This document shows, in pieces, positions 10,228 through 60,473 of a stretch of 64,000 nucleotides of DNA. The notes beneath the pieces are model-generated. The model did no database searches. It was not told the origin of the DNA and worked only from the letters and a program-made list of their open reading frames with translations. This DNA is from Parvibaculum sp. GTDB lineage: Bacteria > Pseudomonadota > Alphaproteobacteria > Parvibaculales > Parvibaculaceae. Both the position numbers and the translations under genes were made by a program. The stretch covers positions 620,001 through 684,000 of the forward strand of contig JAUSMV010000012.1 in NCBI GenBank assembly GCA_030645235.1, given 5' to 3'. How positions within the stretch are numbered: position 1 is the stretch's first letter; each line of letters starts with the position of its first letter.

Positions 10228-10782
10228 ATGAGCAAGGCTTTCACCAAAGAGACTGACAACGAGGACGATGACGAGCCTGAAGCGCTCGCGCCGCTGCCTG
10301 CGGGTACAAAAAATTATATGACGCCCAAGGGGTTCACGCGGCTGCGTGATGAGCTGTTGCAGTTGCGACGCGAGGAGCGTCCCAAGGTTGTTGAAGTTGT
10401 CTCATGGGCGGCGGGCAATGGTGATCGCTCAGAAAACGGCGATTACATTTACGGCAAGAAGCGGTTGCGTGAGATTGACCGACGTATTCGTTTCCTGACC
10501 AAACGGCTTGAGATTGCCGAGGTGGTGGACCCTGCGCAGCAGAAAAACCGGACCCGCGTTTTCTTCGGTGCGACGGTGACTTATGCCAATGTGGCGGGCA
10601 CAGAGCGGACGATCCGGATTTTGGGTGTGGATGAAGCTGACATTGATCGCGGCGAGGTGAGCTGGATCTCGCCTATCGCGCGGGCTTTGCTGAAGGCGGA
10701 AGTGGGCGACGAGGTGGAGATCAAAACGCCGAGCGGCCCGGAGGTGATTGAGGTCGTTGCGATTTCTTACAACGATGCCTGA
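10228..10782 (+). CDS. greB: Transcription elongation factor GreB
   Basis: Cytoplasmic factor that rescues backtracked RNA polymerase by stimulating transcript cleavage. The coiled-coil domain carries the GreB signature REERPKVVEVVSWAAGNGDR. The acidic tip is GDRSENGDY, and KKRLREIDRRIRFLTKRLE follows. The C-terminal FKBP-like domain includes SPIARALLKAEVGDEVE. An extra N-terminal segment of about 28 residues is rich in Asp/Glu (ETDNEDDDEPEAL) compared with classical GreB. It stands alone after tRNA-Lys. Confidence 0.94.
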   Translation: MSKAFTKETDNEDDDEPEALAPLPAGTKNYMTPKGFTRLRDELLQLRREERPKVVEVVSWAAGNGDRSENGDYIYGKKRLREIDRRIRFLTKRLEIAEVVDPAQQKNRTRVFFGATVTYANVAGTERTIRILGVDEADIDRGEVSWISPIARALLKAEVGDEVEIKTPSGPEVIEVVAISYNDA

Positions 10783-50531: not shown

Positions 50532-50620
50532 CGCCTTGCCCCGGCTTGACCGGGGCATCCATCTAATACCGATTGTCGTGTCGAAGATGGATGGCCCGAT
50601 CAAGTCGGGCCAAGACGAAT
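50532..50620. repeat. Composite palindromic repeat (CCCCGGCTTGACCGGGG; GCCCGATCAAGTCGGGC)
   Basis: CGCCTTGCCCC-GGCTTGACC-GGGGCATCCATC is followed by GATGGATGGCCCGATCAAGT and CGGGCCAAGACG. Two palindromic cores are joined head to head by GCATCCATC/GATGGATGG. Same family as 33076-33178 and 52429-52518. Confidence 0.75.
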
Positions 50621-52428: not shown

Positions 52429-52518
52429 CCGCCTTGCCCCGGCTTGACCGGGGCATCCATCTTATCACCACCCAACGCCGCAAAGCTGGGTCTCCCGATC
52501 AAGTCGGGCGAAGACGAA
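52429..52518. repeat. Composite palindromic repeat (CCCCGGCTTGACCGGGG; CCCGATCAAGTCGGGC)
   Basis: Third member of the 33076/50532 family. It has CCGCCTTGCCCCGGCTTGAC, CGGGGCATCCATC, a variable middle, then CTCCCGATCAAGTCGGGCGA and AGACG. The left half is identical to that of 50532-50620. Confidence 0.72.
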
Positions 52519-58105: not shown

Positions 58106-58738
58106 ATGGACCTCTATTTTGTGCCGCTTGCATGCTCGCTCGCCACGCGGATCGCGCTTTACGAAATCGGCGAGGGCGAGGCCACGCGCTTTCATCAGGT
58201 GAAGCTTTCGACCAAAAAACTGGCGGATGGTTCGGATTATTATGCGGTCAATCCCAAGGGGCAGGTGCCTGCTTTGCGGCTTGATGACGGGTCGCTGCTG
58301 ACCGAAGGATCCGCTGTGCTGCAATATGTGGCGGACCTGAACCCGTCAGTGCATATCGCGCCGCCCGCGGGCACATATGATCGCTACAGGCTTCAGTCGG
58401 CTTTGAACTTCATCGCCACCGAGTTGCACAAGCTGATCCTCGCGCAAATTCTTGACCCGACCACACCGCAAGAGGCCAAGCGCCATGCGCGTGACGTCTT
58501 CGCGCCAATCAGGTTGGCGCTGCTCGCGCGTGAACTCGAAGCCCGCGACTATGTGCTGGAGAGCGGCTATTCGGTGGCCGATGCCTATGTGTTTTTCGTG
58601 CTCACGCTTTGCCCCATTGCGCAGGTCGATCTCGCGCCATGGCCGGTGCTCAAAACCTATTACGAGCGGCTGATGACGCGGCCCGCTGTGGCGCGCGCCT
58701 TTGCTGAAGAGCTTGCTCTGGCGAGGGCGGGTGTATGA
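58106..58738 (+). CDS. Glutathione S-transferase
   Basis: A 210-aa cytosolic GST. Thioredoxin-like N-domain: MDLYFVPLACSLATRIAL (Ser/Cys near the beta-class active site), NPKGQVPAL (cis-Pro) and LTEGSAVLQYVADL. The helical C-domain includes SGYSVADAYVFFVLTL. It resembles beta-class bacterial GstA. GGCAGGAG precedes the ATG. It is the first gene of an operon with the HD-domain gene (ATGA overlap), under a divergent TetR. Confidence 0.93.
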   Translation: MDLYFVPLACSLATRIALYEIGEGEATRFHQVKLSTKKLADGSDYYAVNPKGQVPALRLDDGSLLTEGSAVLQYVADLNPSVHIAPPAGTYDRYRLQSALNFIATELHKLILAQILDPTTPQEAKRHARDVFAPIRLALLARELEARDYVLESGYSVADAYVFFVLTLCPIAQVDLAPWPVLKTYYERLMTRPAVARAFAEELALARAGV

Positions 58739-59460
58739 GCCGTCTCACTACAACCCGTACCAGGCCGCCGTCATGGCTTCTGGCCTCGCGCCTCATCAAA
58801 GTGCAATCGCAGGCGATGCTGCGCCGCATGGCCCGTTCATACGGAATGCGTCGCGTGGCGCATCTGAGCGAGGATGATCTGGCCATTCCCGATAGTGCAT
58901 TGGCGCGCAAGGCTGTTGCGCTGGTGGCTGAAACCTCGCCGGGTTTTCTGCTCAATCATGGTTTGCGTGCCTATGCCTTTGGCGCGGCACTGGGGCGGCG
59001 TGACCGGCTGAAATTTGACCGCGAGTTATTGTTTCTCGCCGCCGTCATGCATGACCTTGGCCTTGTCGAACAGTTCGACACGCCGGATGAACCCTTTGAA
59101 CTACAGGGTGCGAAAGCGGCTCGGGATTTTTTGCTGGGGCAGGGCGTGGATAATGAGCGCGCTGATCTCGTGCATGAGGCGATTGCGCTTCACGCTTCCA
59201 TCGGCGTTGCCTCGCGCGGTGCGCCGGAGGTGCAGCTTTGCCATTACGGCACCGGCGTCGATGTGGCGGGCTTCCGGCTTTATGATATGGAAATGCGGGA
59301 TGTGAAACGTGTGATCGAAGTCTGGCCGCGCCTCGGCTTCAAACAGGGCTTTGTGCCTTTGCTGAAAGATCAGGTGGCCCGCAAACCACATTGCAACATC
59401 GCGGGACTTGTCAGCTTCGGCTTCACCGACATGATCGAAGCCGCGCCTTATCGCGACTAG
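58735..59460 (+). CDS. HD-domain phosphohydrolase-like protein
   Basis: A 241-aa protein of the HD superfamily. The first His is in LLNHGLRAYAF, the HD pair in AVMHDLGLVEQF, and a later His/Asp set around LVHEAIALHASIG. The layout resembles cyanamide-hydratase-like/HDDC HD proteins. The substrate is unknown. It is coupled to the GST gene. Its TAG stop abuts the 41-bp repeat that duplicates the chorismate mutase 3' end. Before the 720-bp insertion this gene and the mutase gene would have been convergent with overlapping stops. Confidence 0.85.
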   Translation: MSRLTTTRTRPPSWLLASRLIKVQSQAMLRRMARSYGMRRVAHLSEDDLAIPDSALARKAVALVAETSPGFLLNHGLRAYAFGAALGRRDRLKFDRELLFLAAVMHDLGLVEQFDTPDEPFELQGAKAARDFLLGQGVDNERADLVHEAIALHASIGVASRGAPEVQLCHYGTGVDVAGFRLYDMEMRDVKRVIEVWPRLGFKQGFVPLLKDQVARKPHCNIAGLVSFGFTDMIEAAPYRD

Positions 59461-60180
59461 GCCGACTTCTTCGTCTTGTCGTCAAACACCGTGAATTCGT
59501 GCTAAAGCTGTGTTTAGTTTTCTTAGGGAGGACTACTTGCGCGCGGGCATTGTGATTGTCATCAGTATGATCGGAATCCTTGCTGGATCGCCAGCATTTG
59601 CAGATGCGGCTGCTGCGTCAGCCGCGCTCAATGTTGAAATTGAGCAAGCCTACAAGGCGCTTATTGAAAAACTTGATGCGCCGGATGCAACTGTCCTGAA
59701 AGCGGACCAAGCTGATTATATCGTCGGGCAAGCGGCGAAATGGCCGGATGGCAGAAATCGCTTTGTGCCAATTTCAGGAGAAAGGCTGATATTTCTCAAA
59801 TCGGTCAATACCAAGCCGCCAGCCGGTTATGCGGGACGCTGGGAAAACCTATATGGTTATTTCGAAATCGCCGAAAAAACGAGAGGACTTTTCTCTGTGA
59901 CGGCACTTGTTGCTAGTCCTTATAGCGGCGGATGGATTTGCGAATTCGAAGGTGATGGCAAAATAGAAAATGGCGAACTTGAAGCCGTTGAGAAGCGGAA
60001 TGATTCTTCTGACGGGCTGAGCGATCTTTTCCCCAAGTCCGTTAAACCTTCGGTGCTACATCTGACGCGACAAAGCGGACATCTCAACGTCTTTGCGAAG
60101 CCGGAGGAGCAGGCCACCTTGTGCGGGTGGAAGGGGTCAATCAACGGCAATTTTTTTGCGGTAAAGCAGTAACGCCTTAA
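59461..60180 (+). mobile_element. 720-bp mini integrative unit bounded by 41-bp direct repeats
   Basis: 59461-59501 and 60181-60221 are identical over 41 bp (start GCCGACTTCTTCGTCTTGTC, end GTGAATTCGTG), offset exactly 720 bp. Read on the minus strand, both copies encode the last residues of the chorismate mutase (HEFTVFDDKTKKSA) with a stop codon (TAG left, TAA right). The unit holds one secreted protein gene and nothing like a recombinase. It looks like insertion at a gene's 3' end that rebuilds the gene. Segmental duplication is the alternative. Confidence 0.6.
59537..60172 (+). CDS. Secreted protein of unknown function, passenger of the 720-bp unit
   Basis: A 211-aa protein. The signal peptide is VIVISMIGILAGSPAFA, cleavage near AFA-DA. 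The mature part has WPDGRNRFVPISGERLIFL, GRWENLYGYFEIAEKT, GGWICEFEGDGKIENGEL and a Cys near the end (ATLCGW). TTG 59537 is chosen because GGGAGG lies 6 nt upstream; GTG 59510 is the alternative. It ends 4 bp before the stop of the convergent chorismate mutase gene. No family recognised. Confidence 0.7.
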   Translation: MRAGIVIVISMIGILAGSPAFADAAAASAALNVEIEQAYKALIEKLDAPDATVLKADQADYIVGQAAKWPDGRNRFVPISGERLIFLKSVNTKPPAGYAGRWENLYGYFEIAEKTRGLFSVTALVASPYSGGWICEFEGDGKIENGELEAVEKRNDSSDGLSDLFPKSVKPSVLHLTRQSGHLNVFAKPEEQATLCGWKGSINGNFFAVKQ

Positions 60181-60473
60181 GCCGACTTCTTCGTCTTGTC
60201 GTCAAACACCGTGAATTCGTGTTCGATCGACTTTTCGATCAGGAGCCGCCATAGCGGTTCGGCGATGGAGCGGGGCAGGCCTTGCTTGCCGCCTTCGGCC
60301 ACGACCTTGGCCACCACATCTTCAATGCGGGCGTCGTCGCGTACGGCGGTGCGCTCGCCTTTGATATGTCCGGCCTGTTCGATATAGGTCAGGCGCTCGG
60401 CAAGGAGAGTGACCAGCGCGCGGTCGATCCGGTCAATTTCGCTGCGGACTTCCGCCATTGTCTGACATTTCAT
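60177..60473 (-). CDS. Chorismate mutase, AroQ class (stand-alone)
   Basis: A 98-aa all-helical enzyme converting chorismate to prephenate for Phe/Tyr. AroQ pattern: SEIDRIDRALVTLLAERLTY (Arg and Asp/Leu register), IEQAGHIKGERTAVRDDARI and LWRLLIEKSIEHE. ATG 60473 is used, with GGGAG upstream; longer frames to 60965 run through the reductase promoter. The last 13 codons are contained in the 41-bp direct repeat, so its 3' end may have been replaced by an element-borne copy. Confidence 0.87.
   Translation of the reverse strand: MKCQTMAEVRSEIDRIDRALVTLLAERLTYIEQAGHIKGERTAVRDDARIEDVVAKVVAEGGKQGLPRSIAEPLWRLLIEKSIEHEFTVFDDKTKKSA

Follow-up and report, generated by a model that had tools for sequence, protein, structure and literature searches.

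Foreign genes can enter a genome together with a long direct repeat of the host target, a process described as insertion with long target duplication for the restriction-modification genes of Helicobacter pylori (Nobusato et al. 2000, as cited in PMC3031569, PMC1643837, PMC4978471 and PMC3874152; the study also appears in the reference list of PMC11708052). As the citing passages portray them, the H. pylori cases combine a foreign gene with a direct repeat of host target, were seen by comparison with a related genome and were tied to no known mobile element; the locus reported here resembles them in each of these respects. It differs from them in that its cargo encodes a secreted LprI-like protein instead of a restriction-modification enzyme, and its repeat measures 41–44 bp, whereas long target duplications are of the order of 100 bp in the relevant passage of PMC3874152. 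Such insertions call for a relative whose unoccupied allele bears the repeat once; here this allele is seen in two genomes (G003 and G018), the comparison being one between species.

Integrative elements use the 3′ ends of genes, and cis-mobilisable relatives without a recombinase of their own exist. Our locus is like them in having direct repeats at a gene 3′ end with the gene end restored; unlike them, its insert holds no recombinase, repeated use of the site was not seen, and the unit is the size of a single gene. Homology-facilitated illegitimate recombination, in the portions of PMC3240628 and PMC5361080 that treat it, can also set a new gene beside the leftover of an old one, but it is generally coupled to a deletion, which is absent here, and the donor arrangement was not seen. 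Finally, the transposed genes of Arabidopsis, as outlined in part of PMC2869330, are likewise single genes between direct repeats that are mostly genic and target-like, although that case is eukaryotic and a circle from tandem duplicates is proposed there.

The repeat pair and the empty site

The window is the whole stretch of Parvibaculum DNA analysed here (64,000 nucleotides). Towards its end, two 41-bp copies bracket one secreted-protein gene (hereafter the cargo) beside the 3′ end of a chorismate mutase gene (CM), with an HD-domain protein gene (HD) on the other side. The features are as follows.

58735 to 59460, plus strand: HD-domain protein gene (Pfam HD, E 1e-05, 26.2 bits against a cut-off of 22), which adjoins CM likewise in G003 and G018
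59461 to 59501, no strand assigned: left 41-bp copy, apparent remnant of the CM 3′ end (minus strand) from the place where HD and CM ancestrally met, aligning with the single CM tail of G003
59502 to 60180, no strand assigned: inserted DNA, 679 bp, 49.9% GC, absent from the empty sites of G003 and G018
59537 to 60172, plus strand: cargo gene for a secreted, diverged LprI/DUF1311-like protein of 211 aa counted from TTG (kinship via relatives; tblastn 2e-11 to Shinella plasmids)
60177 to 60473, minus strand: chorismate mutase type II gene, intact (Pfam CM_2, 8.9e-19), with its TAA stop at the right junction
60181 to 60221, no strand assigned: right 41-bp copy, working CM 3′ end

The two 41-bp copies are identical and lie 720 bp apart, a unit made up of 679 bp of new DNA plus one copy. 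If a single mismatch (TAG versus TAA) is allowed, the match stretches over 44 bp, and the flanks of the two copies are unlike each other. With up to 3 mismatches allowed, the number of such pairs expected by chance in 64 kb is 0.00 (100 shuffles), and the 41-mer has two occurrences in this genome (G000), whereas a search of 27 other genomes gave none. On the minus strand, the left copy runs out in GCC TAG and overlaps the TAG stop of HD in CTAG at 59457–59460; the right copy runs out in GCT TAA, where the intact CM gene ends. The long direct repeat is built of target sequence, namely 41 bp of the CM 3′ end, and we infer that these bases came from the target and not along with the insert.

An artefact in which the cargo was misjoined through the repeat is extremely improbable. 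The assembly is a draft of 86 contigs with a contamination value of 3.31, but both junctions lie inside an 863-kb contig, and by our reasoning a misjoin would need reads in which the cargo has a CM tail at each end.

CM was present in 38 of 60 relatives, of which 29 were fetched with ~1.5 kb on each side. HD adjoins CM in two of these 29, G003 and G018, which are other species and not sister strains; in both, HD and CM are directly convergent, with a single CM tail, no cargo and 7 and 3 bases, respectively, between the two stops. Across the 29 relatives (L004–L032), the neighbour beyond the CM stop is HD in 2, GST in 9, a ferredoxin-like gene in 11 and some other frame in 7. Some relatives have CM and its 3′ neighbour with overlapping stops. 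These comparisons give good support to a derived insertion at a junction where HD and CM were originally convergent, and one event in the G000 line is all that is needed. The CM DNA of G003 is 85% identical; because the two 41-bp copies are identical although 3 substitutions and a 3-nt indel separate G003 from them, the duplication probably postdates the G000/G003 split, unless conversion kept the copies alike. An earlier note on this DNA had reported the identical copies, their reading as the CM C-terminus plus a stop and the overlapping stops at the left copy, and had proposed an original convergent junction that should survive as an empty site in related genomes; our analysis bears out each of these points, the last in both of the fetched relatives that have the HD-CM pair.

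By comparison with G003 and G018, HD and CM are both intact and no deletion is coupled to the insertion. This bears on the main rival explanation, which is illegitimate recombination with a conspecific donor. A closely related donor would already have had the cargo convergent with CM; homologous exchange would have taken place within CM, and the far end would have been joined one-sidedly, 41 bp inside the recipient CM, the old tail being left as a relic. Since the products of such recombination generally bear a deletion of similar size (PMC3240628, in the part concerned with them), the intact HD and CM speak against it. The order at the right junction (cargo stop, CGCC, CM stop), in turn, resembles a natural tight convergent junction, as this explanation would have it. 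In PMC5361080, a process akin to this one is put forward for Vibrio orphan immunity genes and hypothesised for the orphaned 3′ regions of Rhs loci. The genome encodes a ComEC-type Competence domain, but so do 10 of 14 control genomes. Against this explanation, the tail is identical at 41 of 41 positions, which would call for a conspecific or very close donor, and no genome with the cargo adjoining CM was found among 60 other genomes or among 384 in a second search. We consider this explanation unlikely, although it deserves to be taken seriously.

The inserted DNA and its cargo gene

Around the cargo, non-coding DNA amounts to no more than 35 bp upstream and 8 bp downstream. By reading, the TTG at 59537, which lies behind AGGGAGG, fits better as a start than the GTG at 59510, so that the protein probably begins at this TTG; its N-terminus resembles a signal peptide by eye. 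The reading of frames found no other gene-like frame in the insert and no recombinase, and the Pfam results agree with the earlier note that the insert carries one cargo gene only. As HD precedes the cargo by 76 bp and has the same orientation, the cargo is probably transcribed by read-through from the GST-HD operon. One sigma-70-like site was found in 2 kb and shuffles give 1.1, hence no promoter argument is made.

The earlier note had suggested examining the codon use of the cargo, and its composition is atypical, though not extreme. The comparison set consisted of 322 ORFs of at least 200 aa, taken mechanically from 464 kb; GC3 was lower than in the cargo in 11 of them, and the codon-use index in 21. 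When length-matched fragments were used, 11 of 303 did not exceed the cargo in GC3 and 19 of 303 in the codon-use index.

No clear terminal inverted repeats were found in the insert, 5 of the first 7 bases matching, and neither a transposase nor IS ends were detected in it. That short inverted match is what could speak for a non-autonomous element moved by some transposase that makes very long target duplications. The match is weak, however, and the genome holds a single copy of the insert at E 0.001. To our knowledge, a repeat of 41 bp exceeds the target duplication of any transposon, which also counts against transposition, and we hold this explanation to be very improbable.

Relatives of the cargo protein

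The putative kinship between the cargo and LprI is indirect, because the cargo alone misses the cut-off of the Pfam LprI family PF07007 (E 0.12, 13.2 bits versus 22), whereas 5 of 6 aligned cargo relatives pass it. By eye, the cargo lacks the N-terminal Cys motif found in these relatives, so that lysozyme inhibition by the cargo protein would be a guess, and any role assigned to the protein is likewise a presumed one. When compared with NCBIfam, PHROGs and PDB, the protein gave no match up to E 5.

Among the 60 other genomes, none gave a direct match to the cargo at E 0.001 (of the 61 genomes searched, 17 fall short of 90% completeness or exceed 5% contamination), and a search of 384 other genomes of the class returned four weak partial matches (E 0.002–0.006). 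With a single-protein query, no close relatives were found in genome contigs or viral contigs. Relatives of the cargo do occur on eight plasmid records, from Shinella, Rhizobium and Ketogulonicigenium; phage records yielded none, and the search with alignment A1 revealed three in genome contigs (L078–L080). The contig of L078 bears the label Bacillus subtilis SK6B4, which may be wrong, as the cargo relative in it most resembles proteobacterial proteins among those compared here.

Profile A1 (four sequences) detected LprI-like stretches, the majority of them from the N-terminal half, and did so in 50 of 385 genomes, including G000. Because G010, of the same genus, matches this profile (E 1.8e-12, in a different and longer frame), the LprI-like family is, by this measure, not foreign to the genus, though the cargo itself is unmatched there.

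Tests for a mobile unit

The earlier note had inferred a small mobile unit that brought its own copy of the gene end, as integrative elements do. The CM 3′ end would then be an attachment site at which a recombinase acting in trans inserted a gene-end-restoring unit, of which the present locus may be a relic. Such a unit would explain that the repeat stops almost exactly at the gene end and that the inner copy then provides the working stop. The comparisons went the other way. No second CM tail was present at the CM loci of the 29 relatives (16 of which were also taken as 12–14 kb stretches, giving 45 loci); elsewhere at these 45 loci, the best match to the CM tail had 15–20 mismatches of 41, and shuffled tails had 15–22. 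At 10 loci (7 relatives, 3 of them twice), an inspection confined to the printed starts of the frames adjoining CM revealed no integrase; in the other 22 relatives this position is occupied by HD, GST or a ferredoxin-like gene.

The 41-bp block shows no paired (core-type inverted) symmetry, 265 of 500 shuffles being as good, and the viral contigs yielded neither the CM tail (exact 22-mer) nor a close CM relative (single-protein query, which reaches close relatives only). The scant non-coding DNA around the cargo also argues against a mini-element. No second unit of the cargo type was found. The earlier note had further suggested looking for the cargo beside other CM 3′ ends or within similar repeats; besides the absence of the cargo next to CM in the genomes searched, 23 of 25 loci of cargo relatives lack a direct repeat of at least 16 bp bracketing the relative. 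At the two loci that have one, the repeat is, by reading, the 3′ relic of a paralogue (L038) or measures 17 bp (L092). We therefore regard site-specific insertion of a mini-element as quite improbable.

Proposed event

The reading that we prefer, with a probability of roughly 0.55, is that a foreign fragment of 679 bp was captured at the HD/CM junction and that a long stretch of the target was duplicated in the process. Foreign DNA with one secreted-protein gene would have entered the convergent junction, and 41 bp of target at the CM 3′ end (or 44, with one later change) would have been duplicated. A staggered break or a template switch would be a simple route; in the latter, synthesis would leave CM, pass onto the foreign fragment and re-enter CM at a distance of 41 bp from its end. 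Both neighbouring genes would stay whole, a resident recombinase would be unnecessary, and the old CM tail would become non-coding leader DNA. A target duplication accounts for the repeat without the cargo having carried it; as a single event, it also explains the empty sites and why both neighbours are intact. The genome yielded no Ku (in a search that gives a match in 1 of 14 control genomes), which makes end joining of the classical bacterial kind unlikely and a replication-type switch likelier.

Several observations count against this capture. The repeat ends no more than one codon from the CM stop and a stop then follows at once, which would be an unlikely coincidence for a random target; this position fits an attachment site, and it also fits selection for products that spare CM. 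A further one is the match of 5 of the first 7 terminal bases, which allows a weak transposon reading. The moderate degree to which the composition of the cargo is atypical also weighs against the capture, as does the origin of the empty sites from other species. Overall, the locus looks like a rare gene capture without a dedicated jumping enzyme and not like a new mobile element. It would represent a clean, fairly recent capture of one foreign gene that left both target genes whole, and would extend a pattern known from restriction-modification genes to a plain secreted-protein gene. Its defined junction may serve as a starting point for studying transposase-free insertion of single genes in bacteria.

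Other repeats in the contig

We surveyed the whole contig (C55, 863,476 bp) for exact direct repeats of at least 18 bp lying 150–5000 bp apart, and obtained 30. A filter dropped those whose central 18-mer has more than two copies, whose flanks are alike or which have a parallel diagonal; four remained, namely the 41-bp pair, a 33-bp palindromic repeat, a 24-bp pair and a 19-bp pair. The diagonal rule had removed a further pair, of 44 bp, at C55:762834. In a survey of 464 kb with distances of 100–20,000 bp, 35 repeats of at least 18 bp were found, versus 3 and 1 in two Markov controls.

The 24-bp direct repeat is unique (L116:9109–9132 and 10272–10295; C55:329109–330295) and surrounds one short-chain dehydrogenase gene. 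It adjoins a low-GC restriction-modification pair, consisting of a BsaWI-type endonuclease with an HTH (just above the cut-off) and an N4/N6 methylase. The small following gene is, in G003, the direct neighbour of a tRNA-Met with an identical anticodon, without the dehydrogenase and restriction-modification genes (synteny by eye). With up to 2 mismatches, the 24-mer is found in 1 of 41 genomes, G000 itself. As no clean empty site was found for the dehydrogenase gene alone, this case is only a lead towards a second capture in the same contig. One may speculate that a unit the size of a gene, lacking a recombinase, moves from one gene 3′ end to another and either brings the target tail along or copies it, and that the 41-bp and 24-bp cases are two products of one target-sparing capture pathway, a conjecture in which we place little confidence.

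The 33-bp repeat (window positions 50532–50564 and 52430–52462, 1898 bp apart), with two frames of ~200 aa between its copies, looks like an intergenic palindromic repeat. The 19-bp direct repeat has two copies with unlike flanks, one at C55:287185 and the second 3194 bp further. GC-rich palindromic repeat families, of the CCTCCCC...GGGGAGG and CCCTCACCCAACCCTCTCCC types, occur in several copies at C55:762731–781613 and at other sites.
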